This document shows, in pieces, positions 13,553 to 47,263 of a stretch of 64,000 bases of DNA. The DNA comes from Crossaster papposus (Eukaryota > Echinodermata > Asteroidea > Velatida > Solasteridae), in the NCBI GenBank assembly GCA_037893245.1, contig JBAIAA010000543.1, positions 868,001 to 932,000 on the forward strand. Reading direction: 5' to 3'. The notes under the pieces are model-generated. The model did no database searches, had not been told where the DNA came from, and was given only the letters and a program-made list of their open reading frames with translations. Both the position numbers and the translations under genes were made by a program. How positions within the stretch are numbered: position 1 is the stretch's first letter; each line of letters begins with the position of its first letter.

Positions 13553-13555
13553 TAA

Positions 13556-14682: not shown

Positions 14683-15305
14683 TAACAGTGTGCTGTAAAT
14701 ACACTTGTGCCAATTCCTGCCGCCTTTAGCATATCTCTAATTCATCTGCTTATATTGTCTGTAGATAAAGCCTTAAACGGCTTTTGACAACTTACAAACA
14801 AACGTTTCTCATCACCACGAACATTCTTTGTTCGTTTTAAATATTCTGATAAATTGGTAACAACGCAAAGATCAGGATTTTATGATAGAATGGGTAAAAC
14901 AAAATCGGCTTGATGTACTCCTGGTCTACTTTGTTTTAATAAATTTCCCGCTGTAATACGACACTCTGTGTCAGATATTGATATATCATCAATGCATATG
15001 AGGTGCAGTGTTTGGGTTCGTTGGGCTGTAACTAGAGCCAACAACGTAACTACTTTCTTACTGAGCACCTTTAAAGAAAGTTCATTTGTATTACCTAACG
15101 ACTTCAGGAAATTAAACAAAATACCAACATCCCATATAGTTTTATATCTTGGGAACGATAGTCTAGAATTAAAAACTCCCTTCATAAATCTTGTGGTCAG
15201 GACATGACTACCAAAAGTAACACCATCCATGGGCAAAGTAATTGGCAAAGTAATTGACGAAATTGCCGACCTGGCACAGTTAATGGAACTATAACTGAGT
15301 CCTTC
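14683..15305 (-). pseudogene. DIRS tyrosine recombinase, central part with catalytic Arg and His
   Basis: Minus strand. RFMKGVFNSRLSFPRY and LKSLGNTNELSLKVL are followed by TAQRTQTLHL, whose Arg is the first catalytic residue of the family. Past a stop near 14880 the similarity resumes in another frame (KNVRGDEKRLFVSCQKPFKA) and runs to VFTAHC at about 14690, where the His starts the His-x-x-Arg box. The insertion at 14682 cuts the gene there. The enzyme would recombine circular DIRS cDNA into the genome. Confidence 0.8.
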
Positions 15306-17275: not shown

Positions 17276-18534
17276 CGCATCGCTGCTACGTCATGGAATT
17301 CTCCGTTCGATCGTGTACAACATATGTTTTTTTGCCCTATCAGATACAGGGCTGTGCCATTCTTATATTGTAGGTTGGATATTGCTATTGGTATTCCTAT
17401 GTACTATAATTATGTATTTATGTTGCATCTCATATTTCATTTTTGAATTATGATATTATCTATTTCATATACGTTCCATTATTTGTGAACTATATTTATG
17501 TACTATATTGGTATTATACATGCAACTTATGCATATCAATTATTATAATATACACAACATACATCCCGTTGTTACATTCGTTTATTTTAATACCCTACTG
17601 CGTACTGTAAAAATCACATTAAAAACCCATACATACGAAATGGTACTCTCTTTTATTTATTTATTTGCATTTACGCGAGCCCCTCACACCCGTAACACCC
17701 CCACAGCAAATGGTAGATTCCCGTTCCTTATTTTATGCTAATGAGGGTCACGTGGGGGCAAATGCTGCATTATGATTGGCTGGGTGCCCGTCAAATTTGG
17801 ACGAAATCGACAGGTTAGACGTACTTCAATACTGAGGAGGCACCTGAAGCACCACTCTCGGCGGCACCGGAAGCACCAACGACACCACACGCTCAAAGGG
17901 AGAGGGAGGGAGGGAGGGAGGGAGGGAGGGTGCACCACTGGCATCACTAGCATCCACCTTCGGAGGGTGTACCACCAAGCGTGATCCAAACAGCTTCTAT
18001 ATACTACTAGAATGACTCAAAATGGGTTGTTCAAATCCTAGCTGTTGAATGTTTAGCTCAGTACGAATGTTACCATTTTCGAGAAAACATTATTTGTTTA
18101 AGCCATGAGCGAAGTTGTTACTTTTAGTGGATAAAGCCAATATAGAATGTAATGTATCATCTTTCAAACATTTGAAATATAGGGAATGTCTCAGTATTTT
18201 TGTAAAGGTGTTGTGCTATGTGAGAAAGTTAAAATACGTAATACCCTTGGAATTACTTATATCTTTGCAGTTTACTATCTTTTAAATACTGTCAATTTCC
18301 AAATTATGTACAAGTAATAATATTGCGTGAGGGTACCAGAACTGATATATTTGTGACATCAGCGAAATAGAGCATGTTTGCGAAGTGAAAATGTTTGAGG
18401 CCTGCCAAAAAAAAGAAGGTATTTCGCGTTGCAAAACAAATCAATTGTATTAACTCTTTCCTTACGAAAAGTAAGTTGTTATAGAATATAACGAATCCCC
18501 CCCAAGACATTTGTAAAACATTGTTGTTCTACAG
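17276..18534. other. A/T-rich non-coding DNA, probable intron or 5' flank of the nicotinamidase gene
   Basis: No domain-bearing frame. It has a (GGGA)n microsatellite at about 17897-17930. I looked for the missing upstream nicotinamidase exons (catalytic Asp, metal-binding His residues) and did not find them. Confidence 0.5.
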
Positions 18535-18846
18535 ATAGCAGAAAACCATCTGATTCACCCGAAGGGTACTGATCCTAAAATAGAGAGCTATTCCATATTT
18601 AAGGATGAAAACAAGCGCCTCAACACGGCATTAATGTCTGACATGACGAAGCGAGACATCACCGACGTTTACGTCTGTGGTGTGGCTTACGACTTCTGCG
18701 TAGGCAAGACAGCTCTGGATGCTCAGAGTCTGGGTTTTCGGACGATAGTGATTGAGGATGCTATCAGAGGCTCTGATTTAGAGAAGATCGCCGATATGAA
18801 ACAGGAATTGCTACAAGCTGGTTGCGTCTTAGGCAAAGCACACGAG
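18535..18846 (+). CDS. Nicotinamidase, internal exon with catalytic Lys and Cys
   Basis: The exon is bounded by ...TTCTACAG upstream and GTACGG downstream and is open in phase 0 for 104 codons. It reads HPKGTDPKIESYSIF (the Lys of the amidase triad), then VYVCGVAYDFCVGKTALDAQ, where the Cys of DFCV is the nucleophile, then FRTIVIEDAIRGSDLEKI. This matches animal nicotinamidases (Drosophila Naam, C. elegans PNC-1), cysteine hydrolases that turn nicotinamide into nicotinic acid for NAD+ salvage. The catalytic Asp and metal ligands belong to upstream exons not seen here. I chose the splice sites over the internal ATG at 18634 because the conserved Lys block lies upstream of that ATG. The downstream exon joins in frame. 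Confidence 0.85.
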
Positions 18847-19132
18847 GTACGGTATCACAACCACCCCCACCCAAACTCGATAATCGAGTTGTCTGGTGTA
18901 TATTCCCATATTTATCAATGGGTTTCTTTGTCGAATAAAATAAACCTTTCTCATTTAGACTGCCATTTGCCTACGATATAGACAGCGCGGGCCCTTATAC
19001 ATCTTATTTTGCAGCGACTTCAGTGCATTGATTTCCCGTTTCAATACATGCCTGGTTGTTTCTTTCTCTTTTACAATTTTTTGGAAATACTCCCAGATGA
19101 TTTTAACAGTGAATATCTTATCTTTTAAACAG
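18847..19132 (+). other. Nicotinamidase intron, 286 bp
   Basis: GT...AG intron. The donor GAG/GTACGG and acceptor TTTTAAACAG/GTT leave both exons in phase 0. It contains in-frame stops and AATAAAATAAA near 18936. Confidence 0.75.
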
Positions 19133-20444: not shown

Positions 20445-20950
20445 GGGTTGCTATAGTACATACATGTACATGTGTATGTACGTTTAACAATGCACATGTG
20501 TAAAAGTGCACTCACCTCTGTCTTTTGTGTGACGAACTTTATCGGCAATATGCCTGTCGCTGAAGCCTCTCAAATTTGGCATCTGTGATTGTATGTATCT
20601 TGCCTGCATTCAAGAAATATTGTTTAGATCGGTACTGGACACACATCTACACCCACATTGAAACACACTCTTACAGTATGTAAACATATTTTTCGGAAGG
20701 CCTTCCACGCTGAATGTTTTGTACACTGTTTTTGCAGAAGCTATGTGGGCGTGCCTTATAATCCAAATATGTTCCAAAACGATCGCCTCCAACATGTAAA
20801 GTCTATTTTACTTGGTTTCGTTGGAACTGTAAAGCAATGTCCAAACTGTTCAATCGCATAATCGGTTCTTTGCACTCCCTTATTATTAAGCGTCACAATA
20901 ACGACTCTGGTGGGGAACACTTACAGCATTTGTTGAATCGCTGTCACGCA
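20445..20950. other. Non-coding spacer
   Basis: No gene seen. It has a TACATGTACATGTGTATGTA-like stretch near 20460-20480. Confidence 0.4.
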
Positions 20951-23187
20951 TAGTCCTGCAGATTACTACAATAATATTACATTTAGTGATAGAAGCACCA
21001 AAATTGGCACACATGCTCATTTTGGGTCACTTTACACAAAAACCCCGTTAGCCAAATTAAAATCCAAGATGGCCGCCATTTTTGAAAATGGACGCCAATG
21101 AAGGCCAATTATCACCGAAATAACTATGTACGGATGGAAAGAATGGCAATGCAAGCACAAAACTTGGCATTTAACATCTGTTTGGTCTCCCTGTTGTTGG
21201 CATATCCAAAACAGTATATAAGGCACTTGAACATTCAAGATGGCCGCCATTTTTCAAAATGGTCGCCACTGAATGGCTAGTAGTAGTGTTACCAAGGATC
21301 AAACAGTAATACAAGGACCAAAATGGGCATTTAATCTCCATTTGAATCCAATATTATGCTAAAATTGTCAACCACTTGGTAATTCAAGATGGCTACCATT
21401 TTTAAAGATGGCCGCCACAAGATGACTCAGCCTATATGTTACAAAAAGTGACACATAAATCGTAACATATCTGGTACAAAGACATACAACACACTCTAAA
21501 AACAGATTGGTTGAAAATAACCAATATATTGGTCTATTTCAACCAATCCAGTTGGTAGATATGTGGATAACCAAAATATTGGTTAAAATAACCAATCTGA
21601 TATTGGTTACCGGTACCTAGTCAATCCATATTGGTTATAACACCAACCAATGCAATGTTGGTTAATTTAACCAATCCACAATGGACTCCGACCAAATTGT
21701 ATTGGTAATTTGTATTGGTTATAGCACTAACCAATACACAATAGTAGGGCTGCATATTCATATTGGTTAACACGCAACCAATTTGCATAACACCAACCAA
21801 ACAATTTGCACAACACCAACCATATTAATTCAAAGGTTCCCACGCAACCAATTACATATCGTGGACAAATTACGTAATTAAATAATACCTTATTACTTAT
21901 TACACATTGCAATTATGTATACATACAATAATAACCTATTCATATTAGATATTAGCTACTGACCACTTACTACACACTTAGCTACTGCCTTTGTTAGTTT
22001 TATAGTTTGCTTTTTTGTCCACGACGAAGTCACAGCTATTTTTGTATGAATAATGTCAACAGTTGAATACGGATGAAATTTAATGTAAATGTTTCACTAT
22101 GTTAGCACAAACATCTAAATTCAAACATGGAATCGTTTGAATAATTATATATTATGGTCAAAAAAGTGCATTTTGGACTAAATACCACAATTTAACACCG
22201 ACTATTGTCCCCAAACAAATGCTCACTTCTGATTGGTCAGTTGCTGTGGGTACATTTCCTACATTTTGAATAACCAATAGATTGGTTAATACCTTGGTTA
22301 CAAGCTCAACCAATATGACTGGTTGAAGGACAACCAACATTGGTTATGAATGACTAATATATTGGTTGTGACTTTGGTTGCAAGCTCAACCAATATAACT
22401 AGTTGGAGGATAACCAATATATTGGTTACTAATAACCAATAGATTGTTTAATACCTTGGCTACAAGCTCAACCAGGACTGATGAGATTGATTTGCTCTAT
22501 GCATGGGATGTTAAAACACAGACTGTAAGCATCAAAGGCACGCTAAGTATGCCTTTACATGTTCAGTAACGCAAATACAAAATAAAGAGTTAATCTTGGA
22601 AAGTAATTACAACAGTAATGGTAAGAATCTGAAGTCAGGTCGCAATTCTTGTAACCATTTTCTTCTTTACTGACACCCGCTATTGTTATAAATTGGTATT
22701 GTACGTACGTGTTGGCAGCCATTTTGAAAAATGGCGGCCATCTTTGATTTCCAGTGATTTATGATTTGTTAATTATAAATGACCAACGAAAGGTAAATTG
22801 CAGCTTTATTGTATGACCATTTGGTTTCTTTTGTAAAATAACCAATGTATGTCATTCAATGAAAGCAATCTTGAAAAACATGGCCGCCATCTTGAAAAAA
22901 TGGCCGCCATCTTGAATGTTTAAGTTGTTTCTATTTTTGAATTGATAAGGGGTACATTTGGTGGATAGTTGCAAATGTTGGTGCTTGTATGACCAATTAA
23001 TCCAATGTAACATTAAGTGTTACCATTTAGTGGCGGCCATCTTGAAAAAAAATGGCCGCCATATTGGATTTTAATTTGGCTAACGGGTTTTTTGTGTACA
23101 GTGACCCCAAAAGAGTAGTTATGCCAATTTTGGTGCTTGTATCATCAAATGCAATATTGTGGTGAAAAATATTAATCTGCAGGACTA
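20951..23187. mobile_element. TAGTC-ended inverted-repeat element with YY1-like motif arrays
   Basis: The left end (TAGTCCTGCAGATTA at 20951) matches the complement of the right end (...CTGCAGGACTA ending 23187). Similarity continues inward for about 140 bp (AAGCACCAAAATTGGCA, then CCGTTAGCCAAATTAAAATC). The 3-bp direct flank is GCA on both sides. Subterminal repeat units of about 150-175 bp each carry AAGATGGCCGCCAT or its complement. The core is rich in ATTGGTT/AACCAAT. There is no transposase; 2237 bp, non-autonomous. I cannot assign a superfamily. Confidence 0.7.
21500..22460. repeat. ATTGGTT/AACCAAT interspersed palindromic cluster
   Basis: Dozens of ATTGGTT and AACCAA(T) words in both orientations are separated by 8-30 bp, often as AACCAATATATTGGTT palindromes. 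They occur in two blocks (about 21500-21850 and 22260-22460) with plain A/T-rich DNA between. The word contains CCAAT. It forms the core of the TAGTC element. Confidence 0.75.
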
Positions 23188-25305
23188 GCAGGGAAAGTAT
23201 CACTCTTTGACATACTAAAAATCGAATGTCCCTCATGAGTGGAAAAGTGATTTGTATTCACTTTTTCGCAATGTTTTTATCATACAACAACAGCAGGTAA
23301 AGAGGGAGTGTCGTTTATATTTTGCGTCTGTTAACCGTCATAATTCGTTCACATCACGCATGCGACACCGCAAAACTAGGCTTTTCAGGCCAAAACAAAA
23401 ACGCTTCTGGTTCTGGTCGGCGCGCGCGTAGATTTAAACTATTCGCGTCAATTTTTTTTTTCTTCAAAAATTGTTAACAAAAATAAAAATCATCGGTTGC
23501 TACAACCAATGATAACATGCTACAACACTGCTGAACTACAAAACGTTCAAACCAACACTGGCCGTTTTCCAAATCCCTGCTTGGGCTTCGTCTCTGCGCC
23601 CATTCCCATTGGCAAACTACACGAATACAGCCTGCATGAAGACGAAGCCAGGGTTTGACAACGGCTGGAATAGGTTATATCACCCTCGTTCCAGTGTGGT
23701 AAACACGCGGGGACGTACGCTAACGTGATGTGATTAACTTTGTTTCGATACTACACACAAGTCATAACAGCGTGAAATATGCCACTTTCTTTCGGTGTCC
23801 GTTGTTTGCGGAGTAAAAACTATAACACCGTTTGGTATTGTGTCATGTGACGGCTCGGTAACTCTTCTATGTGTGTACGAATCTGTGTGCAACGGGACTC
23901 CGCCTAGTGGCGAGAGCTTTTTTGCTAGACGGCAAACTAGGCACAAAGGCAAATGATTAAGAACACCAAAGTATATTCGATTGAAGTCAACATTTATTTC
24001 CATATTGCAACAACAAAAGCAACAGAAATGTGATTGTAAGATAATTAATGATAAACATACCAGTCATTGAACAATACACAGTGAAGTAAGTACAGTACAA
24101 TGTATATGACACACACAAAAGCAAAACAGTACTTACCTTGTCTGTACAAGCCAACTTTAAAGGAAGAAAATAAACGCGTCGTCGAATCGATTCTGGAACT
24201 TTGGTCCGACCAAAGTTTTGTTTAGTCTAAAAGACCGGTGGACTTGTCTGTGCCCGAGCCAAAGGCTTTCCCATTTCTTTGTTTGCTTGTTTGTTTTTTC
24301 TCCTGTTTATTTATTTATTTATTAATTTATACAAATAGGCACTTGGGGAGACAAATTAGCGTTTTTAGGTAATAAGGAGACAGTGGCACTTAGGGAGACC
24401 TTTCAGTGGATCCCTAAGTGTCTAGCTGCCCTAACAAAACAATATTTGGGAGTTAGTTTTGTCTTAGAACGACAGATTGTGGTCTAAATAGCATAAATCT
24501 CGAAGATCTTAGAGAAAAGGGTTAGGGTAAACAAGTTAGGACTGTTTTAAGTTTGTGTACATCTCTATGGGATTGTCTCCTAAGTGCCCATTTGGAGGAA
24601 ATAAAATTATTATTATCATTATTATTATTACATTTTTAATTGTTTATTATCATTAATTATTATCTCGATTGGGCAATTTGTTTTCTAAACGTCCGCATCG
24701 GCACGATTGCCGAACGGCGATCGCGAAAAAAACCATTTTCATTGTCATGAGGAATACTACCTAATGAGCGACAGTTCGAACCATCCGGCGCAATTGCGAC
24801 CTTCAAGATATCTTAAATATACATGTACATTTGTCATGCTCAACGTTGCCAAGGAGCGTCGATGACGGGCATATTATTTCGGGGTCTCGTGTCGTCACTC
24901 CTCGCTTAGAACTCCGCCCTCGCTTTCGGGAACATCTCGTCAGACTTGCAGACACCCAACAAGTACGGGAAGCAAAACAGCGCGGAACTGGAAAATGTAT
25001 ACTTTACACGCAGTCAACACTAATGTAACCTAACCCATCCCCCTTGAAACCTAAAAGGAATTCCTGAGATTCCGGGAACACAATGGTTAACACAAAAGAG
25101 TGGGGGAGGGGGGATTTCTCAGCCACCTATCGTGCTTCATAATATGGGGAAATGCGTCCTGAATAAACCTACAAGACCGCCCCATGCCTTAAATGCTGTT
25201 TATTTAGATGATAAATTAATTTTGCAGATGAGCTTTACAAGTCCGCAAATATGCGCAGAACAAAAAACTGCTGCGTGTGGGACTTATCTCGTCGCTGAGT
25301 TGCAT
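23188..25305. other. Non-coding A/T-rich DNA before the Gypsy element
   Basis: No gene recognised. It holds the second copy of the dispersed block (23411-23500), an imperfect inverted repeat at about 23560-23665 (GGCTTCGTC and GACGAAGCC), a (TTTA)n stretch near 24306-24330 and (ATT)n near 24606-24632. An 89-codon minus-strand frame at 23734-24003 has no recognisable domain. Confidence 0.5.
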
Positions 25306-26119
25306 TGTTACGTATGGAAACCCCAAGCCGTTTAAAGCTCGGGATGTCACACACGGCAGCAAGGAAATGAAAATAAAAGGAAGGAACCAACGAGCAAAAG
25401 AAGGGGAACAATCAACAACCAGCAATTAATAAGACGGGAAACTATATGCTTGTAATTTATGAGAAATTAATGTGCATACTTTTAATTATATTCAGATCAA
25501 AAATACAAAGTGGAATAAAGTACGTTATTTATGACAATACAAAATTATACAATTATAAAGGAAAAGATTGGCCAATCCTTACGAGAAATGAAGACCCGGT
25601 GAAAATAGGAGTAAACAGTGGCCGGGTGCTCTGTTAGCCGGAAACGGGTTGCAGCTTGTCGATGGGATTTGCGGTCCGGTCCGAGTCCGACGAGGGGCGT
25701 AGACTGAAAGGGGCGGAGACTGGAAAGGTCGCAGGTTTGGCTGATGACGGAGCTATGTATACTACACGGGTATGATGGTATACCCGTGAAGAGCCTTGAG
25801 TCTTGAGTCTTGAGTCTTGATTCTGAAGTCTGAAGCCGTGAAGACTAAGCGGCCACGCCCATGAAGTCCCGTCAGGGTGGCTGGACCAACTGGGCAGTCA
25901 GCGGCCTGCCTGCCCGTCGTGGTTTGACTAACAGAAAGTTCGGCCCGGCAATGTCTACCCATTTTATAGTAGGTCGGTACATACCTATTACTTACACACA
26001 CATTGTAAAGTATAATGGCTAACATATTTTAGGGGATTCGGACACCGAGGATTAAGAAGTTTATCCTCTACTGGGTGGCCCACCTGGAAATGTGGAATGT
26101 TAATTCCCGACTGTAACAG
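25306..26119 (-). repeat. Gypsy 3' LTR
   Basis: 814 bp, TG...CA with TGTTAC/GTAACA ends. It contains a short (TCTTGAG)n run near 25797-25820 and differs from the other LTR at about ten positions. Confidence 0.9.
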
Positions 26120-26136
26120 TCTTCCCCCCTTAAGAA
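26120..26136 (-). promoter_or_regulatory. Gypsy polypurine tract
   Basis: On the minus strand CTTAAGGGGGGAAGAC directly precedes the 3' LTR, in the position of the plus-strand primer. Confidence 0.7.
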
Positions 26137-27039
26137 AGGTTTTAACATATGGAGAAAACCCTTTTTTTTTTAACTCCCAATTTTGATAATACGTACACTT
26201 TCTTTTGTATTACTTGTATCCCCTTAATAATATAGTTTATAATAAACCTTAACATACTAAGTAAATACATCTTTACAATCGTAATAGTGATAAAGTGCAT
26301 AATATCAATTTGATAACCATTAGTCAGGTCAATATACGGTAAAAAACACCCCAACCCCAAACAAATTGCAACAAAAGGTTTTTCAACGGTTTCTAGTAGT
26401 ATTCGACCTCAGGAATAACATACTAAAAGTCGACCAAAATCGGAGTTTCAGAAAGCCGTTATTTTCAAGATGGCGTCCAAGATGGCCGCCGATACCTAAA
26501 AATGGCAATAAATCACTTATTATCAATCCTAGAGACATAATTTGGGTGTCTATCTCATGGTTTTCGGGGCGAAAATACATTGAAATGAGTTAAAATGTTC
26601 ATTGGTGGCCTAGGAAACCCCCAAATTTAAGGTGCCTCACCCCCCTCCCCCTGACAAAATGTAGTTTTCTTGTACTATTGAAGCATATAACCTAAGTAAC
26701 AGGTTAAATGTGTTTATTGGGAAGCAGCGTAATCATACATGTCACTCAAGGTTTTTTTAATTTTTAGGGCGATTCTCGGTCACATGGGAAGGACATTAAC
26801 GTGAAGGACGTGTAATACTGGGTTTTGTGGAATTTTCTTTCTTTTTCTGTGAGGCTATTAGGTTTTTTAATTCTAATGGAGTGCTTTTGCAAGAAGGTAT
26901 AGCACAGAGAAACCGGTTTATGCAGGCATACTTCAAGGAATGATCAGTTTATTTGTTTGTGTTTTTTGATCAATTCTAGAGTTAGCTGCAGTGAATCAAA
27001 ACTCATTCTATGTGGGAAGGGGAGGGTGTTTATGGAAGT

Positions 27040-27640
27040 CAGAACTTTTTCTCATCGTTTTCGTTATTTTTTTTGGAGATGCTGAAGCACGGTTCTGCTG
27101 CGTAAGGTATCATTGGATTTTAGGTAGTGGCTGGTCTACAGAGATAAATCTGCATAATTTATTGTGTGCTGGTATGCCAGCAGAGTGGTTGCGTAACTAT
27201 CCCGCCCAGAGCGTAATTCCTAATTTAATTTTTTGTTCTAGTGATATACGCTTCATGGGAGGTCAGTTCAGGCCACTTTTTGTTCTGCGAGATTGCAGTC
27301 TGTAGGAATGGGGGGGGGGGGGGGGGGGGGGGGGGGGTGTTTCGTGTTTCGTGTACAAGTTTCAACAGAACCCCTCCGTGCTTTTCGTTATTTTTTTTGA
27401 GACGCGGAAAAGGTTCTGCTGACAAGTATCATATGGATTGTATTTGTGACTGTTCTGCCGAAGATAAATCTGTAATTGTACGTTAACTAGTGGGTATGCT
27501 AGAAAGTGGCTGTTTGACTGGTCTCTCCAGAGCGTGATTTTTAACTCTTTTTTTCCTCTTTTTTCCGTAAGACACGCATCTGGGGATCAGTTTTAGCCAC
27601 ATTATCTCTGCTAGATGACAGTCCGTGGTTGGAGTTCGTG
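27040..27640. repeat. Diverged ~320-bp direct duplication split by a G28 run
   Basis: Segment 27095-27300 (GGTTCTGCTGCGTAAGG..., AGATAAATCTG) resembles 27400-27610 (GGTTCTGCTGACAAG..., AGATAAATCTG). A run of 28 G lies between at 27310-27337. This is likely the 3' untranslated region of the Penelope-like element on the minus strand. Confidence 0.5.
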
Positions 27641-27996
27641 GACGGGCAAATACATAAAACGTCTGCAGGTCAATTGGGTTAGACATTCCCTAAAAGCGGG
27701 AGTTTCAAACCCTGTCTCTGGTTTTGGCGATGCGATGACTGGTTTGTGTATTGCCACAGTGGTCCCTTTGTTTTTAGTTCACACAGTGATTGATTATTAC
27801 CGGTGATAATATGCCGTCCCCTCTTTTTTTTCCTTTTTTGTAAGGGGAGCAGGGCATATTTTCTGTGCTATATCATGCACTTCATCAGCCACCCTCTTAT
27901 ATAATTCATTTTGCTTTCCTTGTTTTTATTTGTGTGTCGGTTTGTATGACGCATGGCAAGGACAGGGGGGGGGGGGTTTGACTTATTTATTTTGTT

Positions 27997-28962
27997 TTAG
28001 TCTTGAGATCCATTTCTTTGATCATTGTTTTGTTCTTTCAATACTTCCAATAGAATTTGCAGATTCTCCTCATCAAGATTTTGTTCCTCTTGGTTGGATT
28101 GTGGAGATGCTTTAGTCCTAGATCGAACAAGTTCATCTTTTATGTTTTTGTGCCGTTTGTAAGCCAGGATGGGTTGGGTATCAAATAGCCTATTCAGATA
28201 TTCGTTTTCGCTAATCAAGGGCCAGTGTTTGAGGATAGCCCGTTTCAGGGCTGGGTGCGCGACATGTGGGTAGTATGGTAGGACGAACACCAGTGGGATA
28301 TTGTTTTTGTTTTTTTCACGCTTAGGGTCCGCGGGAGTCTTTCCCCTTTGAGAAAGGAGAGCTAGGTCTTCGTTTGTGTATCCGCGCTTTTGAAGTTTGT
28401 CTTTGAAGAATTCAACCCTCTCCTCAAAGTCTTTTGAATGGGTACATATACATTTGTATCTGGTCACTTCGCCCTTGATTAATCCGCCAAATACCGACTT
28501 AGGGTGTGCTGAATCTCGAGCTAGGTACTGAAATGTATCAGTTTGTTTGGTAGCGACTCGAGTATCCAATATCCCTTCATGTATGAATCGTTCGCCTTTG
28601 TAGATAATAAGGTCGAGAAAAGTGACTTGGCGATGCGAGATCTCAGACGTGAACTTATTAAGTGATTGCACTAGGTCAGCAGCCTGCTTTTCATTTCCGT
28701 TAAAGATTATAAGAACATCGTCTCTATATCTCATGTAACTCACAATTGAGGGATTGTGAGGGAGGATTTTGTCTTGTTCGTATTTGAATAGAGTTATGTC
28801 ACAAATCTCCGGACTGCATTCGCTGCCCATGGCCACGCCAATTTTTTGTCTGAAAAACTTGCCATTAAATTCAAACGTGTTTCGACGCATAATGAGTTCA
28901 AGGAGACGTCGCGCGTGGTCTGTCGTGGGCTTGGGTATTTCGTATAGTCTGTTGTCGGCCAT
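27997..28962 (-). CDS. Penelope-like reverse transcriptase, palm/thumb part
   Basis: 321 residues. Motifs: FFRQKIGVAMGSECSPE (36-52), MRYRDDVLIIF (77-87, catalytic Asp pair preceded by Arg), VTFLDLIIY (about 113-121), then a thumb-like region ending LAYKRHKNIKDELVRSRTK. This is the pattern of Penelope-like elements, whose RTs are related to telomerase. It ends in an acidic/Gln-rich tail, and no GIY-YIG nuclease is visible here or downstream. A frameshift near 29010 separates it from the N-terminal part at 29009-30022; only a few codons are affected. ATG 28962 is therefore not the true start. Confidence 0.85.
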   Translation of the reverse strand: MADNRLYEIPKPTTDHARRLLELIMRRNTFEFNGKFFRQKIGVAMGSECSPEICDITLFKYEQDKILPHNPSIVSYMRYRDDVLIIFNGNEKQAADLVQSLNKFTSEISHRQVTFLDLIIYKGERFIHEGILDTRVATKQTDTFQYLARDSAHPKSVFGGLIKGEVTRYKCICTHSKDFEERVEFFKDKLQKRGYTNEDLALLSQRGKTPADPKREKNKNNIPLVFVLPYYPHVAHPALKRAILKHWPLISENEYLNRLFDTQPILAYKRHKNIKDELVRSRTKASPQSNQEEQNLDEENLQILLEVLKEQNNDQRNGSQD

Positions 28963-29008
28963 TGCAAGTGCGTCACAAACTGATTCAATTGCCTCATCTT
29001 GTGGGCAG

Positions 29009-30022
29009 TTAGTGTACTATATCCAGTGTTATCAATAAGTTATCTTGCTCCAATGCCAGGTTATTTAGTTTTTCAAGCACATGCCCAGAATCGCGTGTGT
29101 ATGTTCTTTGCTGTTTGACAATTGGGAGCAAGAAATAGTCTATGTATTTGGATATGGATTGAGTCGGTCCTCCGCAACCACTAATGATTGGCCTCCCCAC
29201 GAACCGTGTTCCTTCTGGTACTTTTTTGTGAACTTTCGGTAGGAGGTAAAGGCAAGGTGTTTTAATGTCGTGGTTGCGGGGGTTAAGAAACTCCGATATG
29301 TCTTTCGATATGAGTCCGTCCACGTAGAGTTGGCGTATGGCTTGAGAGACTAATTCCGCGGTTTCATCGGTCAAGTCCCTGTTAATTAATTTCTTCATAG
29401 TGCAGTGGGGGCCTGTTAATTGTCGTGTCCCTTCACGTATGTAGTCTTGTTTGTTAAGGACGCACACACCGCGGCCTTTATCGAATTGTTTGATGATAAT
29501 ATCCTGTCTTTTCTTAAGGCCAGATAGCGCAACACGTTCTGCTTTTGTTATATTTAGTTTGACATTTTGAATTTTCAGTCTGGATAGTTCCTCCAGAGTG
29601 CCTTCAATTATGACTCTAGGTTTAGATTGAAGGTAGGTTGGGGAGTCCAAGTTGAAGGTAGTTTGAACGGGTGTGAGCTTATAGGTCTGACTCTCCCTCA
29701 CCATTCTTAACCGTAATCTCATCTTTCTGAAGAAGGATCGGGAATGGCGAAGGATGGTCGACCTTTTTGGTTTTTGGGGGGTCGGGATGAAGTTAAGGCC
29801 CCTGCCCAATGCTACCAGTTCAATGTTGGAGAGTTGAGCGTCTGATAGATTTTTCACATAAGGCATACTTTTCTTGGCCCTCATTTCGAGAGTGATCGTT
29901 CTCGTCTGTTTGTTTTGCTTTTTACTTATTTTGCGAGACTCGAACAATCTTTCTCTTGCTTTTTTAGTTGTGTGATTTTTTGGCTTTTGTTGATTCTCCT
30001 TGCCCTTCTCAAGCACACTCAA
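29009..30022 (-). CDS. Penelope-like reverse transcriptase, N-terminal/fingers part
   Basis: 337 residues. The N-terminus is basic (KKARERLFESRKISKKQNKQ). Then come NLSDAQLSNIELVALGRGL, IIKQFDKGRGVCVLNKQDY (the finger block resembling the usual ADKG motif) and LYLLPKVHKKVPEGTRF with RPIISGCGGPTQSISKYID, both Penelope hallmarks. It ends LLITLDIVH-stop where the next residues should reach the first catalytic block. The protein resumes in another frame at 28962. Upstream (30019-30240) a ~125-bp stretch is duplicated in tandem. Confidence 0.85.
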   Translation of the reverse strand: MSVLEKGKENQQKPKNHTTKKARERLFESRKISKKQNKQTRTITLEMRAKKSMPYVKNLSDAQLSNIELVALGRGLNFIPTPQKPKRSTILRHSRSFFRKMRLRLRMVRESQTYKLTPVQTTFNLDSPTYLQSKPRVIIEGTLEELSRLKIQNVKLNITKAERVALSGLKKRQDIIIKQFDKGRGVCVLNKQDYIREGTRQLTGPHCTMKKLINRDLTDETAELVSQAIRQLYVDGLISKDISEFLNPRNHDIKTPCLYLLPKVHKKVPEGTRFVGRPIISGCGGPTQSISKYIDYFLLPIVKQQRTYTRDSGHVLEKLNNLALEQDNLLITLDIVH

Positions 30023-30204
30023 TGTTTTCTTTCGGTCAGGTTTTTGTTCAGTGAGGTGTGCAGGAGAACGGGGAAAATATTTTTAGTTTTGTGATTTTTT
30101 GGGGGCTTTTGTTGATTCTCCTTGCCATTCTCAAGCACACTCAATGTTTTCTTTCGGTCAGGTTTTTGTTCAGTGAGGTGTTCTCTTACTTGTCTCAATG
30201 GATT
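30019..30204 (-). repeat. ~125-bp tandem duplication at the Penelope 5' end
   Basis: TGTTTTCTTTCGGTCAGG followed by TTTTTGTTCAGTGAGGTG occurs at 30022 and again at 30147, along with its flanks. It duplicates the first codons of the RT frame. Confidence 0.7.
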
Positions 30205-30880
30205 CTCTGACCCCCGAAACCATGGGATAGACACCAAAATTATGTTTCTATGATAGATAATAAGTGATTTATGGTCATTTGTATGAATCGGCGGCCATCT
30301 TGGACGCCATTTTGAAAATAACAGCTTTCCGAACCTTCAATTTTAACTCATTTCAATGTATTTTCGCCCCGAAAACCATGAGATAGACACCCAAATTATG
30401 TCTCTAGGATGGATAATAAGTGATTTATGGCCATTTTTAGGTATCGGCGGCCATCTTGGACGCCATCTTGGATATTGCGGGTTTCCTAGACCATCTACAA
30501 ACATTCTAACTTGTCTAAATGGATTCTCTGACCCCCGAAACCATGGGATAGACACCAAAATTATGTCTCTAGGATGGATAATAAGTGATTTGTGGCCATG
30601 TTTAGGTATCGGCGGCCATCTTGGACGCCATCTTGGATTTTGGGGGTTTCCTAGACCATCTACAAACATTCTAACTTGTCTAAATGGATTCTCTGACCCC
30701 CGAAACCATGGGATAGACACCAAAATTATGTCTCTAGGATGGATAATAAGTGATTTATGGCCATTTTTAGGTATCGGCGGCCATCTTGGACGCCATCTTG
30801 AAAATAACGGCTTTCTGAAACTCCGATTTTGGTCGACTTTTAGTATGTTATTCCTGAGGTCGAATACTACTAGAAACCGT
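30205..30880. repeat. Four tandem ~155-175 bp units with paired YY1-like sites
   Basis: The block CGAAAACCATG(A/G)GATAGACACC starts units near 30213, 30368, 30534 and 30709. Each unit then has ATAATAAGTGATTTATGGCC and the pair GCGGCCATCTTG / GACGCCAT(C/T)TTG. The left arm of the same element (26400-26596) has one unit only. Confidence 0.85.
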
Positions 30881-31041
30881 TGAAAAACCTTTTGTTGCAA
30901 TTTTGTTGGGGTCAAACCATATCTTGACCTGACTACATAGCCATTTTACACTTATTAACTAGCTGAAATTATATTAATTAATTCCCCTTACTTTGATACA
31001 TTTCATAGATGGAATTATACATACATGTAATAATATAGTAT

Positions 31042-32799
31042 TTAATAACATCTAGACAATGCATCAGCTATTAAGTTATCTCTGCCCTTGATGTGTCTTA
31101 TCACAAGATCAAACTCTTGAAGGGTCAAACTTCAACGTAGTAACCTTTGATTTTTGTTTTTCATTTTATGCACAAACGCCGAAGGATTGTGATCACTGTA
31201 CACTACAATGGGTCTGGGTGCAGCATAGAGATAAACTTCAAAGTGTTGTAACGCAAGAATGACTACCAGTGCCTCTTTCTCGATAGTTGAATAATTTCGC
31301 TGATGAGGGTTCAATTTCTTCGAGAAAAAACAAACTGGATGAGATATTTCAAGATCGTCTTCTTGGAATAACACTGACCCAACTCCAACATCACTAGCAT
31401 CAACTTCCAACATAAATGGTTTCGTGAAGTCGGGTGCTGAAAGAATTGGCGCGTGGACCAGCATGGATTTAACCATCTGGAAAGCTTGGGTGCATCTTTC
31501 GGTCCAGACAAACTTAGTGTTTTTACTAAGCAAATTAGTCAGTGGAGAAACCACGTCCGAAAAGTTGCGGCAAAATTTCCGGTAATAACCGGCCATGCCC
31601 AGAAATCGCATCAATTCTTTCTTGGTTCTAGGTTGGGGAAAACCAATAATTGCCTCCACTTTGGCATGGACAGGCTGAACTTCACCTTGTCCAATGACAT
31701 GACCCAGAAACGTGACCTTCGCTTTACCAATTTGACTTTTAGCTAAATTTACAGTCAGTTTAGCTTCAGCGAGTCTATTATACAAATCACGAGTATTCTG
31801 TAAGTGTTCATCCCATGTGTTACTGTACACAATAATATCATCAATGTATACTTCAGTATTCGGCAAACCTGATATGACTTCGTTCATTAATCTTTGAAAC
31901 GTTGCAGGGGCATTTTTCATGCCGAAGGGAAGTACCTTATATTGGTATAATCCTTGTGGCGTTACAAAAGCTGATATTTGTTTAGCCCTAGATGTAAGGG
32001 GTACTTGCCAGTAACCTTTGAGTAGATCGTAAGTGCTGACAAACTTAGCATTCCCAACCTTATCAATACAGTCATCAATTCTAGGCAATGGGTAAGTATC
32101 CGACTTTGTTACTGAATTTACTTTTCTAAAATCGGTACAAAAACGAAAAGATAAATCCGGCTTAGGAACTAAAATACAAGGTGAGCTCCATGAACTATTG
32201 CTATCTTCAATGATGTCGTTTTCTTTCATGTACCTGATTTCTTCATTGAACTGAGCCTGTTTAAGTGGACCGCACCTATAAGGGTGTTGCTTAATTGGAA
32301 CTGCACAGCCCACATATACATCGTGACATGCTACATCTGTTTTCCCAGGTACATCAGGACATAAATGACCATATTCAGTTAGCAAATTTGACACGTCAGA
32401 CTGCTGTTCCTTTGTCAAATGATGTAACTTATCAGGAAGATTAGCAATAATCCGTGAATTACTTAGTTTAAGGTTACACCCTGGTGTATAGATGATGTTT
32501 GATAAATCATCAACATATTTTTCATCAGTTACAGAAGCTACAGATTCGTGTTTTACTTCTACATCCATTTTTCTTATGTTATATGACTTAAGCATGTTAA
32601 CATGACAAAGTTGTTTAGCCTTACGCCTATCAGGAGTACGAACGACATAATCTAGGTCACTCACTTTGCGATCTATCACATATGGTCCACTGTATCGTGC
32701 TTGCAATGACTGACCCACAACAGGTAACAATACAAGAACCTGATCACCTACATTGAAACTACGCTCTCTAGCTTTTCTATCATACCAAGTCTTCATGTC
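31042..32799 (-). pseudogene. Gypsy pol: integrase C-terminal module, RT and RNase H
   Basis: The first 75 residues carry the end of integrase including SGPYVI (36-41, GPY/F module). RT follows: FRFCTDFRKVN (218-227), LPFGMKNAPATFQ (289-301) and VYIDDIIVYS (316-325, catalytic Asp pair). RNase H begins about residue 440 (LEVDASDVGVGSVL, later VVYSDHNP). A TGA at 31132-31134 interrupts RNase H; the same frame continues with GRDNLIADALSRCY to TAA at 31042-31044. The frame is continuous with the upstream integrase segment through a TGA at 32800-32802. Having RT after integrase is unlike ordinary Gypsy elements. Confidence 0.85.
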
Positions 32800-34557
32800 T
32801 CAAGTTGTTTTCAGGCGTTCTTTCAAGCGCGTGACATAAGTCAAGACACTATCCTTAGCATGATTATCTACTATGCACTTTTCCTTAATTAGTGCTAAAG
32901 GTCCTCTTACACTACGGCCAAACACAAGTTCGAACGGACTGTAACCCAGAGACTCATTTACTACTTCGCGGATAGCAAAAAGTAGCATAGGAAGTCCCTC
33001 ATTCCAATCCCTCATGTGGTCAAAGCAATACATCCTGATCATTGATTTTAGGGTTTGGTGAAACCTTTCAAGTGCTCCCTGGCTCTGAGGATGGTAAGCA
33101 CTCGAAGTGACTAGTGTGATACCTAATGCACCGAGTTGTTCACGGAACTCTTTTGAAGTAAAATTGGTACCCTGGTCACTCTGAACAATTTTGGGCAAAC
33201 CAAAACGGGTGAAGAACAGAATAAAAGCCTCCCCCACTGGTTTAGCCTTTATGGAACGCAAGGGAATTGCCTCGGCGTACCTGGTAGATGAACACATGAT
33301 GGTAAGTATGTATTCGTGTCCCGAACTTGTTTTTGGCAGTGGTCCTACACAATCTATGACCACTTTACTAAAAGGTTCGTCAAAGACAGGAATAGGTTTC
33401 AAGGGTGCCTTAGGTGGGTGTTGGTTAGGTTTTCCAACTACTTGACAAACATGGCAGGTTCTACAATACTCAGCAACAGATTGCCTAAGGTTCGGCCAAT
33501 AAAAGTGCTGAAGTATACGGTCACAGGTTTTACCTACACCTAGATGCCCTGCCAAAGGTGCATCATGAGCTACACTCATAATATGCATACGATAAGATTT
33601 AGGCACCACCACTTGATGTATAACCTCCCAGTCATGATCAGCTGGGACATCTGATGGACGCCACTTACGCATAAGTAAACTATTTTTCATAAAATAACAT
33701 ACGGGTACTTTATGTGATTCTTCTTCACTAAGCGCCTTTGTACCTATGCTAACTAACTCAGGGTCCCTCCCTTGTTCTAGAATTACATCCTCTTTATTTA
33801 GAAAGGTATCACTAGCTACACCAAACTGTGTAGGTGAAGGTTCAACCTGAGAAGTAAGAGAGGACTTTGCCTCACTAGGAAGATAATTGGGCAAACTTGT
33901 CATAAATGAATCGCCTAAATCTATATCAGACGGAGATTCTGTCAAGTCCTCAGAAGCCTTATCTTTCCTATTCATAGCTCGAGTAGTCACACACGAAGGA
34001 AAAATATCCGGAAACTCTTTCTCTAGTTTTTCTGTGTGATTTACACTACTTGGCCTATCAGTTAAACATGGCTCAACTACAACTCGTTTACCTGCAACAT
34101 CGTTGCCTAAAAGAAGGGTTATACCTTCTAATCCCTGAGGTAATGTGGGGGTTACCCTTATAGTCACAGGCCCTGTAACTAAGTCTGACATCAAAGTTAC
34201 TTGATGGATAGGTACACTGAAAACATCACTACCAACACCAGTAATGAGCATGCTTGCTCCAAGGGAGGACTTCTCAGTTAAAGGAACTGCACCCTTGAGA
34301 ATCAAGGATTGTGAAGCCCCTGTATCCCTTAATATTACTACTTGGTAACGTGGTGAATCCTCACTATCATCAAGTGAAATGTAACCCTCACTAGTAAAAG
34401 GTAAAAAGTCCTCTCTTACTTCAGACATGGAACCTTCAACTAAAACCTCATCGAGCTGTGAGCCTACGGATCTAGGAACAGAGGTGGTAAAAGCCACTGG
34501 CTTAGAAGCACTAACTTGCAATTTCTTGTAAATGAAACAGTTTGATTTTACGTGCCC
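32800..34557 (-). pseudogene. Gypsy pol: protease and integrase
   Basis: After the zinc-knuckle remainder, the protease motif ILRDTGASQSLI appears (DTG at residues 66-68 counted from 34521). A spacer follows, then integrase: zinc ligands H319, H326, C356 and C359, and catalytic D390 (VIDCVGP), D449 (QSDQGTNF) and E485 (GALERFHQ). So the DD-E triad and HHCC finger are present. The segment ends at an in-frame TGA (32800-32802); integrase's GPY/F module continues after it. It is in the same frame as gag and RT. Confidence 0.85.
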
Positions 34558-35220
34558 TCACTGCCCTATCTTTTTACAGTGCGAACAAATCAAACTGGAC
34601 CTGTTAGAATAGCTAGGCTTAATACTTGTTCCTGAACCTTCTGGTTTAGAGTCGGTTATGGGCTTAACACGTTCGTCTGCAGACTTTGAATTATGTGAAA
34701 AATTACTCCCAAACCTTCTCTTGGCGGGAAAGTCATTTCCCATAAAATTACTCTTATGTGTCAACACATAATCGTCGGCCATAACGGCTGCTTGGTGTAG
34801 TTCCTTAACCTGTTGTTCTTCTAAATGAGCTCTTACATTGTCGGGAACACAACTTTTGAACTCTTCCAAAAGCATAATTTGCCTAAGCTTAGCAAAATCT
34901 TTACCGACATTACAGCAACTACACCATTTATCAAACAGAATTTCCTTATCATGGGCAAATTCAATGAAAGATTGCCTATCCTGTTTGTTCTTGTTCCTAA
35001 ATTTCTGTCTGTATGCCTCGGGCACTTGTTCATAAGCTTTGAGAATGGCGGCCTTTACCACTTTATAATCGGAACTCTGTTCTTCTGGAATTGCAGCAAA
35101 AACTTCTTGAGCCTTACCGGTTAGAACGCTCTGTAATAACAAAGTGCGCATATCAGAGGGCCAGTTAAGCCTATCTGCGACTTTTTCAAAGTGAGCAAAG
35201 TATTTTTCTAGATCCTTATC
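34558..35220 (-). pseudogene. Gypsy gag: capsid-like and zinc-knuckle part
   Basis: Starts after a TAG, with KDLEKYFAHFEKVADRL, a retrotransposon/SCAN-like capsid region, and continues VLTGKAQEVFAAIPEEQ and AYRQKFRNKNKQDRQSFIEF. The C-terminus has CSHCKKIGQ, then TGA (34558-34560), then GHVKSNC. The stop thus falls inside a CCHC zinc knuckle. It would form the particle and bind RNA. The frame is continuous with the neighbours. Confidence 0.8.
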
Positions 35221-35619
35221 CTAAAACGGGGGGACAAATCTAATGTGCTTGTTAGGATCGAAACTAGCCTGGCTATAAGTTCCCGATGGCGACTGAAATT
35301 GTCTAAGCCTAGCTAACTCAACTTCAGCTTCGGTCTTCTGACGTTGTTCTCGCTGAATTTGTAGCTCTAACTCCTTAAGTTTAAGTGCAGTTGCTTCGGT
35401 TTGACTAAGTTCTACAGCTGGAACTTGCAACAACTCTTCATCTACACAAAACTCAACTAATACATCTCTAAGATCAGCTTTTTTCATACTACTAGTTACC
35501 GTTACTTTATAGTACTTGGCGATATCAATTAGTTCGGACCTTTTTAACGAGTTGATTTTAGTCTCTGAAGGAGTGGTTTCAAAATTTCGAACAAACTCAT
35601 CAATGTCAAATTTAGCCAT
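35221..35619 (-). pseudogene. Gypsy gag: N-terminal SAP-like and coiled-coil part
   Basis: 132 residues from a good ATG at 35619. MAKFDIDEFVRNFETTPSET is followed by KINSLKRSELIDIAKYYKV, a SAP-like helix pair. Next is a Glu/Gln/Lys-rich coiled coil (LKELELQIQREQRQKTEAEV). It ends at a TAG (35221-35223), and the frame continues as gag. It lies about 80 bp inside the primer site. Confidence 0.8.
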
Positions 35620-35700
35620 ATTGTTAATTGCTGGTTATATAATATTGACGCAAATCGTCAGTTAAAAAAATCCCAAAGTTTTGTATCTTGTTTAAATTCA

Positions 35701-35718
35701 TTCCCGGACAAGCCCCCA
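35701..35718 (-). promoter_or_regulatory. Gypsy primer-binding site, tRNA-Pro type
   Basis: On the minus strand TGGGGGCTTGTCCGGGAA lies four bases inside the 5' LTR. It closely resembles the primer site complementary to the 3' end of tRNA-Pro. Confidence 0.75.
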
Positions 35719-35722
35719 ATTC

Positions 35723-36549
35723 TGTTACGTATGAAAACCCCAAGCCGTTTAAAGCTCGGGATGTCACACACGGCAGCAAGGAAATGAAAATAAAAGGAAG
35801 GAACCAACGAGCAAAAGAAGGGGAACAATCAACAACCAGCAATTAATAAGACGGGAAACTATATGCTTGTAATTTATAAGAAATTAATGTGCATACTTTT
35901 AATTATATTCAGATCAAAAATACAAAGTGGAATAAAGTACGTTATTTATGACAATACAAAATTATACAATTATAAAGGAAAAGATTGGCCAATCCTTACG
36001 AGAAATGAAGACCCGATGAAAATAGGAGTAAACAGTGGCCGGGTGCTCTGTTAGCCGGAAACGGGTTGCAGCTTGTCGATGGGATTTGCGGTCCGGTCCG
36101 AATCCGACGAGGGGCGTAGACTGAAAGGGGCGGAGACTGGAAAGGTCGCAGGCTTGGCTGATGACGGAGCTATGTATACTACACGGGTATGATGGTATAC
36201 CCGTGAAAAGCCTTGAGTCTTGAGTCTTGAGTCTTGAGTCTTGAGTCTTGAGTCTGAAGTCTGAAGCCGTGAAGACTAAGCGGCCACGCCCATGAAGTCC
36301 CGTCAGGGTGGCTGGACCAACTGGGCAGTCAGCGGCCTGCCTGCCCGTCGTGGTTTGACTAACAGAAATATCGGCCCGGCAATGTCTACCCATTTTATAG
36401 TAGGTCGGTACATACCTATTACTTACACACACATTGTAAAGTATAATGGCTAACATATTTTAGGGGATTCGGACACCGAGGATTAAGAAGTTAATCCTCT
36501 ACTGGGTGGCCCACCTGGAAATGTGGAATGTTAATTCCCGACTGTAACA
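35723..36549 (-). repeat. Gypsy 5' LTR
   Basis: 827 bp, TG...CA. It is near-identical to 25306-26119. The (TCTTGAG)n run near 36214-36252 is about two units longer than in the 3' LTR. Confidence 0.9.
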
Positions 36550-37440
36550 TGCATACATAAAGCGCCTCGTTTCCTCAAATTTCACCCTGTGGACCAATGC
36601 CTATACCATAACCGTATATAGTTATTATCTATTTTATTGTTATTATTGCCATTACCACTTTACTCAGGCACTTTTTTACACATAAACATATAACAATAAA
36701 AAGAAAGGGTTGTTTCATTCTCAGGAAGACCATGTGACGTTAATTTACTATAGGGATACAGGCCCCCACAATGTCCATTTATGTTTAATTGGATTCATCT
36801 ATACGTTGGAAACGGGCAGTTTTGCAGAACGGCTGCACCGATGGACAGTTGCTGACCCGCGGATGACACGCAATTTTCGCCAGGTTCAATGGCGACCGTG
36901 GAAACAACAACACAGCTTTTCACCATCGAAATGGTTCTTATGATCTGTTCTTTCAATTGTTGGCTGTGTAAATACCAGTTCGTTAAACGTTGGCGGTACA
37001 ATGGGCACCATGGGTAAGCCCACTCCCAAGATTGAGTATAATTCAACGATTTCAGTTTCGAATTGTCCACAATATGGCGGCGGCAAAGTACTCATTTCGG
37101 CCGTACAAACAGCAGCAACTTTTCGCAGCATGTCCATTTTGCAACAAATGCAGTCAACAGCAGCGATTAATTGTCGGAGGACGTTGTCTGTAATGCTGTG
37201 GAATGGAAAGGGCGTTTAACAAGTAAGACACACCCACACACGCACACACGTATATAAACCCTTTGTTAGAGCCCAGTAAGCGCCATCCAATCAGCATGCA
37301 CATTGTGATACCTTATCGGGTACGTAACCTACGTATCCGTCCGTAGTAGTTTTGCAATCTCCCTACTAGAGCGTTCCAACGGACGGAATAACTTAGTATT
37401 TTTGGATTAGATTAACTTACGCCGCCGTCTGAACGTACCC
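36550..37440. other. Non-coding or badly decayed DNA
   Basis: Minus-strand frames at 36795-37137 show a fragment (YPWCPLYRQRLTNWYLHSQQ) faintly like a Harbinger transposase start, but nothing decisive. A block at 37335-37375 (TACGTATCCGTCCGTAGTAG...) recurs at 16660-16705. Confidence 0.4.
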
Positions 37441-40192: not shown

Positions 40193-40557
40193 CTCCCCCC
40201 TTGAATGCTTATTCAAATCAAAACAATGGAATAATTAATCTAATTTATAACCCAAACTATTTCACACGGCCAGTATTTCACAAATGCCTTTTATACAATA
40301 CAACTGCAGACGTACAATCACTACCACCTTTAACATGAGACCCATCGCAAATATTTCAATAAATTCAACACTAAACTTAACCAAGGGTAGCACATTTTTT
40401 GCAACATCAAAATCACATTAATTTCATGTCATAGTCACACACAAAATCCATACAGTATCCGACCAAAATTTTCTTTGGATCTAATTACTTTCCAATGCAA
40501 TCATTCTATATTAATCAATTCTTTATATATAATCCCTTCATAAAAAGGTTTCTTTCA

Positions 40558-47034: not shown

Positions 47035-47263
47035 TATTGGATAAATAACGCCCCATGACCCGGCGATCCATGTAAATTAAGCGATCATGAATAATAATAT
47101 ATTGGGCGGATAAAGAAACACCTGACTGAAATACTATACAAATTAAACAAAGATGAATGCATTGATCTTCATTATGATGAATATTAAAGCCCATGGCAGA
47201 CATTTTATATAAATTTAAGCAGTCCGATAGACGACAACAAAAAACTTATCGTCGGCGATAACA

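Follow-up and report, generated by a model that had tools for sequence, protein, structure and literature searches.

Two terminal inverted repeat (TIR) elements, here called Elements 1 and 2, lie in the 64-kb window (the whole stretch of DNA that was analyzed; Table 1). Direct reading of their boundaries bears out the proposal of the earlier note that both run from TAGTC to GACTA between identical 3 bp flanks, GCA in Element 1 (CACGCA/TAGTC...GACTA/GCAGGG, where slashes mark the junctions) and CAT in Element 2 (AACCAT/TAGTC...GACTA/CATAGC), and on either side the inverted repeat match goes no further than the T of TAGTC. Identical 3 bp flanks are uninformative by themselves, since 3 of 183 TAGTC...GACTA pairs that lie 100–10,000 bp apart have them, about the chance rate of 1/64. 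Only two of these 183 pairs (17/20 and 18/20) match at 14 or more of their 20 tip bases, and in each of them the 3 bp flanks are identical. Elements 1 and 2 both have matching TIRs bordered by identical 3 bp flanks, the arrangement expected of class II TIR elements with a 3 bp duplication. For each element, an identical 3 bp flank would arise by chance once in 64 cases, and a TA duplication with GTC tips is a less likely reading of the boundaries.

The two Element 1 arms align over 157 columns (identity in Table 1), and those of Element 2 are 96% identical over 216 bp. Element 2 interrupts a Gypsy-type element whose LTRs are both still present, 97.1% identical and flanked by the 5 bp sequence TGCAT; this nesting was absent from the earlier note. 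A search with the joined flanks of Element 2, representing its empty site, gave no second copy in 31201–48000. The palindrome-rich interior of Element 1 includes an 80-bp tandem repeat (22267–22474), and three sub-threshold miRNA matches to its palindromes in an RNA-family search were judged to be chance.

Table 1. Positions in the window of the two elements, their parts and the surrounding Gypsy-type element
Feature	Position	Strand	Remarks
Element 1	20951..23187	.	TIR element lacking a long ORF
Target site duplication GCA, left of Element 1	20948..20950	.	
Target site duplication GCA, right of Element 1	23188..23190	.	
Element 1 left TIR	20951..21097	+	80.9% identical to 23031–23187
Element 1 left subterminal array	21050..21431	+	three units; inward AAGATGGC at 21066, 21237, 21386, 21405
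Element 1 interior	21501..22474	.	many short AACCAAT/ATTGGTT palindromes
Element 1 right subterminal array	22712..23072	-	inward AAGATGGC at 22737, 22886, 22906, 23036; AATATGGC at 23058
Element 1 right TIR	23031..23187	-	
Gypsy-type LTR element hosting Element 2	25306..36549	-	LTRs 25306–26118, 35723–36549
Element 2	26321..30935	.	TIR element with reverse transcriptase ORF
Target site duplication CAT, left of Element 2	26318..26320	.	
Target site duplication CAT, right of Element 2	30936..30938	.	
Element 2 left arm	26321..26625	+	one unit with an inward AAGATGGC pair at 26467, 26479
Reverse transcriptase ORF, C-terminal piece	27997..29016	-	339 aa; YRDD motif
Reverse transcriptase ORF, N-terminal piece	29009..30082	-	357 aa; no significant family match alone
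122-bp tandem duplication at reverse transcriptase ORF start	29961..30181	-	adjoins right array
Element 2 right array	30184..30800	-	about four units of 156–165 bp; paired inward sites
Element 2 right terminal arm	30639..30935	-	

The subterminal regions of both elements contain arrays of a short motif. All 15 exact copies of CAAGATGGC in the window fall within the two elements (100 shuffles gave a mean of 0.40 and a maximum of 3), as do all 17 copies of AAGATGGC, and every copy of either word points inward; because the units are repeats, these 17 sites are not independent events. A looser pattern finds outward sites as well, 6 of 16 in Element 1, where each is the second half of an inverted pair, and none of 13 in Element 2. 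The nearest site lies 115–146 bp from each of the four tips, and clusters then follow every 150–170 bp. Distances of the sites from the tip are 115/134, 286/305 and 435/454 bp on the left of Element 1, 122/144, 274/294 and 443 bp on its right, 146/158 bp on the left of Element 2, and 136/148/168, 301/313/333, 466/478/498 and 622/634 bp on its right. The regular spacing of subterminal units claimed earlier for both elements holds at 149–171 bp (171 and 149 bp on the left of Element 1; 149 and 152 bp on its right, plus one site 20 bp from its neighbor; 156, 165 and 165 bp in Element 2). So does the claim that Element 2 has four paired sites on one side and one pair on the other: its right pairs are at 30294/30306, 30450/30462, 30615/30627 and 30780/30792, three units having two exact AAGATGGC and the fourth one exact copy and one AAAATGGC (at 30306). 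A double-motif DNA pattern matched one viral contig, L001, which was rejected as unrelated (by eye it is phage-like with a 12-bp coding repeat).

Comparisons of tips, arms and site distances agree with the earlier observation that ends, duplication length and motif architecture are alike in elements whose bodies differ. When the left Element 1 arm is aligned uncut with the two Element 2 arms, the scores are 21 and 24, values that in either case one shuffle in 300 attains; once the motif is removed the scores fall to shuffle level (reached by 26 and 48 of 300), so the similarity between the arms is carried by the motif, and beyond it the two elements display no similarity above that of shuffles. 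Past their outer 160 bp the left and right arms of Element 1 are 54% identical, and in a window scan, which chooses no sites beforehand, the best 14 windows of 15 columns there all fall on motif clusters. Motif identity is 0.88 vs 0.33, a comparison that is partly circular in that the sites were chosen by the motif, and in the Element 2 units a further stretch 31–34 bp downstream is equally invariant. The word CACCAAAATT, common to both elements, was dropped as a chance match; by eye, the two elements differ in how it is oriented toward the motif. Chance convergence of two unrelated elements, their tips being meaningless, might be argued from the fact that they have five tip bases in common, that two copies are known and that the 3 bp flank match occurs at the chance rate among all TAGTC pairs, but the four ends correspond in the number of motifs, their distance and their spacing, and we consider such convergence very improbable.

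Element 2 contains a reverse transcriptase ORF that was not in the earlier note, its frame broken once between the N- and C-terminal pieces. The C-terminal piece (P0001) matches Pfam RVT_1 with an E value of 6.4e-6 (26.5 bits, below the cut-off of 29.6), and the match to a group II reverse transcriptase model (E 9.2e-6) is far under its cut-off; judging by its motifs, the enzyme may be Penelope-like. The ORF stops 40 residues past an LVRS motif. AlphaFold models of the two pieces, made with no alignment, have mean pLDDT values of 37.4 and 32.3, too low for use. Among viral contigs, pattern matches gave 11 and 6 stretches for P0001 and P0002, and among genome contigs 90 stretches for P0001, none of them confirmed by tblastn; P0001 had no match among plasmid sequences, and its sole match among PDB sequences (E 0.59) is meaningless. 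The seven Element 2 ORFs of at least 100 aa include no transposase by Pfam, which found the reverse transcriptase only, other matches being to unrelated families and below the cut-off. The earlier suggestion that the elements are non-autonomous thus fits Element 1, in which there is no ORF of at least 100 aa (15 frames of at least 50 aa overlap it, the longest stop-to-stop frame being 76 aa), and needs qualification for Element 2, which has the reverse transcriptase ORF.

The presence of this ORF raises the question of what moves Element 2. It might be a Penelope-like retroelement (PLE) with inverted pseudo-LTRs (pLTRs) that moved itself, Element 1 being a relative moved in trans, as a reverse transcriptase with Penelope-like motifs occupies much of Element 2. 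According to the available text of PMC3846280, PLEs may have inverted pLTRs as their boundaries and are able to mobilize unrelated DNA between pLTRs. However, the duplications stated there for Adineta vaga PLE insertions are 8–10 bp (some cases have none), not the 3 bp found here, the tips are precise transposon-like TIRs, the arms of Elements 1 and 2 are unlike beyond the motif, and neither a GIY-YIG domain (Pfam, E up to 0.1, in the ORF; by eye in the six frames of 26600–28060) nor a hammerhead ribozyme (Rfam, E up to 1, in 20500–31500) was found in the stretches searched; this origin seems quite improbable. A separate, later insertion of the reverse transcriptase into an ordinary TIR element, unrelated to the array, is unlikely on balance. 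In its favor, the ORF is interrupted and Element 1 has the same architecture with no reverse transcriptase. On the other side, the Element 2 repeat search found no recognizable inner inverted or direct repeats around the whole ORF, and the four-unit right array adjoins the ORF start in the same sense.

Subterminal repeats serve as transposase binding sites in hAT and CACTA elements. The main rival to a role for YY1 is that the motif is the binding site of the superfamily's own transposase and its resemblance to a YY1 site coincidental; the arrays are indeed subterminal, roughly symmetric and common to elements with the same 5 bp tip. We regard this as a real but rather unlikely alternative, as the 9-mer is the same as the YY1 consensus in the literature, GCCATCTTG, and an exact copy of it occurs in ProtoRAG in spite of that element's other tips. 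ProtoRAG is the lancelet RAG transposon, and the available text of PMC7481187 and PMC8289069 describes YY1 binding to its TIR 9-mer GCCATCTTG (TR5), the importance of this 9-mer for transcription and efficient recombination, and bidirectional transcriptional activity of its full-length TIRs. The 15 exact matches to GCCATCTTG in Elements 1 and 2 occur on both sides of both elements, and because this 9-mer is identical to the YY1-bound TR5, the proposed YY1 link is plausible on sequence grounds. A plain activator role would have no precedent in ProtoRAG, because YY1 represses transcription there and yet transcription also drops when the motif is lost (PMC7481187, available text).

The reading we prefer, with about as much doubt as confidence, is that Elements 1 and 2 are non-autonomous class II elements of one superfamily (TAGTC tips, 3 bp duplications) with YY1-type ends, and that the Element 2 reverse transcriptase is a passenger. 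They would be cut-and-paste elements moved in trans by a transposase encoded elsewhere. A host YY1-like protein would bind the subterminal clusters, one per 150–170 bp, where it could regulate inward transcription and might help end pairing or precise cleavage, as in ProtoRAG. The longer array of Element 2, upstream of and in sense with the reverse transcriptase ORF, is probably part of its promoter, and the enzyme itself would most likely have been captured rather than drive movement. A bolder proposal, in which the superfamily has phased arrays for host YY1, one per nucleosome-sized interval, and one family is a class I/class II chimera whose endonuclease-less Penelope-type reverse transcriptase is expressed from the array while the element is moved by transposase, seems to us unlikely. 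If true, it would extend the link between YY1 and TIRs beyond ProtoRAG, where that link bears on how V(D)J recombination originated, and a reverse transcriptase within a transposase-type element would be an unusual mixture of class I and class II. If phased arrays of this 9-mer are present in elements whose tips differ from those of ProtoRAG, YY1 recruitment would be a recurrent strategy in DNA transposons and not a peculiarity of RAG.

Among known systems, CACTA/EnSpm (CMC) elements resemble Elements 1 and 2 in their 3 bp duplication and motif-rich subterminal repeats, but their tips are CACTA...TAGTG, and membership was rejected on the TAGTC...GACTA tips. PIF/Harbinger was likewise rejected, its target duplication being TWA and those here GCA and CAT. 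In LINE-1 elements, as in Element 2, the site and the ORF of the reverse transcriptase point the same way. The mammalian LINE-1 5′ UTR has a promoter-proximal YY1 site (PMC11602158, available text), comparable to the YY1-type array of Element 2, but LINE-1 belongs to the non-LTR elements and lacks TIRs. The reverse transcriptase of Element 2 has PLE-like motifs. PLEs resemble Element 2 in their inverted terminal repeats (available parts of PMC3846280 and PMC11167929), and hammerhead ribozymes have been reported for them; Element 2 differs in its 3 bp duplication and precise TIR tips, and no GIY-YIG domain, hammerhead or pLTR was found in it. A mariner paper in which YY1 is mentioned often (PMC4777549, available text) deals with a silencer within the transposase gene. 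Among the listed titles and abstract openings of CC-licensed papers, YY1 binding at DNA transposon ends is described for ProtoRAG only, and neither YY1 arrays in TAGTC elements nor a Penelope reverse transcriptase inside a TIR element is described; the available part of PMC9587614 contains nothing on YY1. According to the available descriptions, ProtoRAG differs in encoding RAG1L and RAG2L; its tips are CACTATG rather than TAGTC, and its TR5 occurs once per TIR, 27–31 bp after TR1, whereas the arrays here lie 115–640 bp in. RAG-like membership was rejected on the tips and on the first site, which is at least 115 bp inward. Like Elements 1 and 2, ProtoRAG is nevertheless flanked by TIRs, and close to each of its ends it has the same 9-mer, GCCATCTTG, which in ProtoRAG is bound by YY1.

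The two terminal inverted repeat elements of the window, Elements 1 and 2, have inverted matches that on either side extend no further than the T of TAGTC, and the TAGTC...GACTA ends and identical 3-bp flanks claimed in the earlier note can be read in both. Among the 183 TAGTC...GACTA pairs spaced 100-10000 bp in the window, equal 3-bp flanks occur in three, the chance expectation; a tip match of 14 or more bases in 20 is found in just two pairs, and both of these have equal flanks. A scan made independently of TAGTC (inverted 20-mers, at least 17 of 20 matching, 300-6000 bp apart, positions 1-49000) gave 1187 overlapping matches, eight of which combine identical 3-bp flanks with pairing of the first base: Elements 1 and 2, three positions within Element 1 and three in a separate structure at about 13.5-14.7 kb. 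Since the inner Element 1 matches and those of the separate structure pass this filter, equal flanks also arise by chance, and the case depends on tips, flanks and arrays agreeing.

Features of the elements and their neighbors in the window
Feature	Coordinates	Strand	Details
Element 1	20951-23187		2237 bp; start TAGTC, end GACTA; flanks GCA/GCA
Element 2	26321-30935		4615 bp; start TAGTC, end GACTA; flanks CAT/CAT
RT ORF, first piece	30082-29009	minus	in Element 2
RT ORF, second piece	29016-27997	minus	in Element 2
122-bp tandem duplication	29961-30181		at RT ORF start, adjoining array at 30184
Array frame	30343-30945	minus	through Element 2 array; 200 aa
Array frame	30347-30883	plus	in Element 2; 178 aa
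Gypsy-type element	25306-36549	minus	contains Element 2
Its LTRs	25306-26118 and 35723-36549	minus	97.1% identity; 5-bp flanks TGCAT
Its integrase ORF	34557-32800	minus	H2C2 zinc finger and rve
Its reverse transcriptase/RNase H ORF	32799-31132	minus	
Intermingled inverted repeats	13553-14686		two structures; ATGGCCCTGTCACACCAGA ends common to both
Non-LTR retrotransposon ORF set	7633-10813	minus	by eye
BEL/Pao-like pol	40558-45536	minus	by eye
Isochorismatase-domain ORF	18517-18981	plus	E 3.7e-11
86-bp satellite	49354-64000		final 14.6 kb

Aligned over 157 columns, the two arms of Element 1 share 80.9% identity; those of Element 2 show 96% complementarity along 216 bp, except that they differ in length by 10 bp close to the tip. 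Between the elements, local alignment scores are 21 (both left arms), 24 (left Element 1, right Element 2) and 18 (right Element 1, left Element 2), reached by 1, 1 and 20 of 300 shuffles, respectively; a reverse-complement control scores 14 (89 of 300). With the YY1-type 9-mer that is repeated in the subterminal arrays (the motif) removed, the same four alignments score 17, 17, 15 and 14, reached by 26, 48, 119 and 103 of 300 shuffles. This drop towards shuffle level indicates that, besides TAGTC, the resemblance is carried by the motif, and that the remaining sequence differs, as had been claimed.

The words AAGATGGC and CAAGATGGC occur 17 and 15 times in the window, always inside the two elements and always pointing inward from the tip; the expectation for CAAGATGGC is 0.40 and none of 100 shuffles reached 15, but because the units are tandem copies the independent events are far fewer than these counts. 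A looser pattern is inward at 10 of 16 Element 1 sites, the six outward ones being second halves of inverted pairs, and at all 13 in Element 2. Inward sites lie 115, 134, 286, 305, 435 (from exact-word positions rather than the looser pattern) and 454 bp from the left tip of Element 1, and 122, 144, 274, 294 and 443 bp from its right tip; in Element 2 the distances are 146 and 158 bp (left) and 136, 148, 168, 301, 313, 333, 466, 478, 498, 622 and 634 bp (right). Thus the shared subterminal architecture described earlier is borne out by clusters at about 115-170, 275-335 and 435-500 bp in four arms of two dissimilar sequences, arm length permitting. Such spacing may be nucleosome-like. That the agreement is coincidence seems very improbable. 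A double-motif match on another contig (L001:4239-4495) was rejected; that contig is phage-like, and its 12-bp coding repeats contain the double motif incidentally.

Mean pairwise identity is 0.88 within the motif versus 0.33 outside it for seven aligned Element 1 sites (excluding 21405 and 22906, each the second site of its unit) and 1.00 versus 0.70 for the five Element 2 units, figures that are partly circular because the motif was used to choose the sites. The Element 2 units share a further invariant stretch 31-34 bp downstream, and, as young copies, they are the weaker evidence of conservation. A choice-free scan took 15-column windows of the Element 1 arm alignment past its outermost 160 bp, a portion with 54% identity; the best 14 windows listed all fall on the clusters of the motif, near 282-299 and 435-466 bp, which fits selection or convergence on the motif. 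That the motif is instead a binding site of the transposase itself is less likely, but a serious alternative.

The claim that the elements are non-autonomous holds for Element 1, which has no ORF of at least 100 aa, but Element 2 has a putative reverse transcriptase ORF (RT ORF) in two pieces. The second piece matches RVT_1 in Pfam (E 6.4e-6; 26.5 bits, under the cut-off of 29.6) and a group II intron RT model (E 9.2e-6, far under its cut-off); the first has no significant family match in the Pfam and RT model searches, and neither the other five Element 2 ORFs of at least 100 aa nor the two long array frames have a Pfam match above cut-off. In the array, the spacings between units (165 and 156) are each divisible by three. 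The RT ORF contains DKG, LPKVHK, YRDD and KNIKDELVRS, which we take to be Penelope-like element motifs. A GIY-YIG domain was found neither in the ORF (Pfam) nor, by eye, in the region behind it, nor was a hammerhead found by Rfam in the Element 1-Element 2 region, and a Penelope element is improbable. The array motifs have the same sense as the RT ORF, which suggests that the array may be used as its promoter. Accidental insertion of the reverse transcriptase, compatible with a transposase-binding motif, is doubtful though a serious contender. In the Element 1 interior, AACCAAT/ATTGGTT palindromes (21498-21555, 22339-22440) give sub-threshold mir-133 and MIR5649 matches, probably mere hairpins.

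In the minus-strand Gypsy-type element, Element 2 has the pol ORFs on one side and the 3' LTR on the other, so its insertion is probably no older than that element, barring Gypsy having copied it along. The integrase-first order of this Gypsy-type element is that of Gmr1-like elements. By eye, the repeat content of the window looks animal-like. Elsewhere, the intermingled inverted repeats are probably one TIR family inserted beside or into itself, and the isochorismatase ORF is the only host-gene-like piece noticed among the part of the window's ORFs scanned. The satellite consensus before 51547 is the reverse complement of that after 51548, where GC skew flips; this is either a true inversion or an assembly join.

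The reading we favor, at about even confidence, is that both elements are non-autonomous and mobilized by a transposase, with YY1-type arrays that would control inward transcription and perhaps help end pairing, and with the Element 2 reverse transcriptase as a passenger; it and its alternatives overlap, and our estimates for them do not add up to one. In the parts of two reports drawn on here, the lancelet RAG transposon ProtoRAG has in its TIRs a 9-mer, TR5 (5'-GCCATCTTG-3'), bound by lancelet and human YY1; the full-length TIRs are transcriptionally active in reporters, transcription is repressed by YY1 yet also reduced by mutating YY1 sites, and YY1 depletion reduces TIR-dependent recombination (PMC7481187). 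Mutation of TR5 strongly reduces recombination ex vivo and little affects cleavage in vitro (PMC8289069). On Elements 1 and 2, YY1 might act as either activator or repressor. TR5 is the motif letter for letter, and ProtoRAG is the nearest precedent for the arrays, which makes YY1 the best single candidate for their binder.
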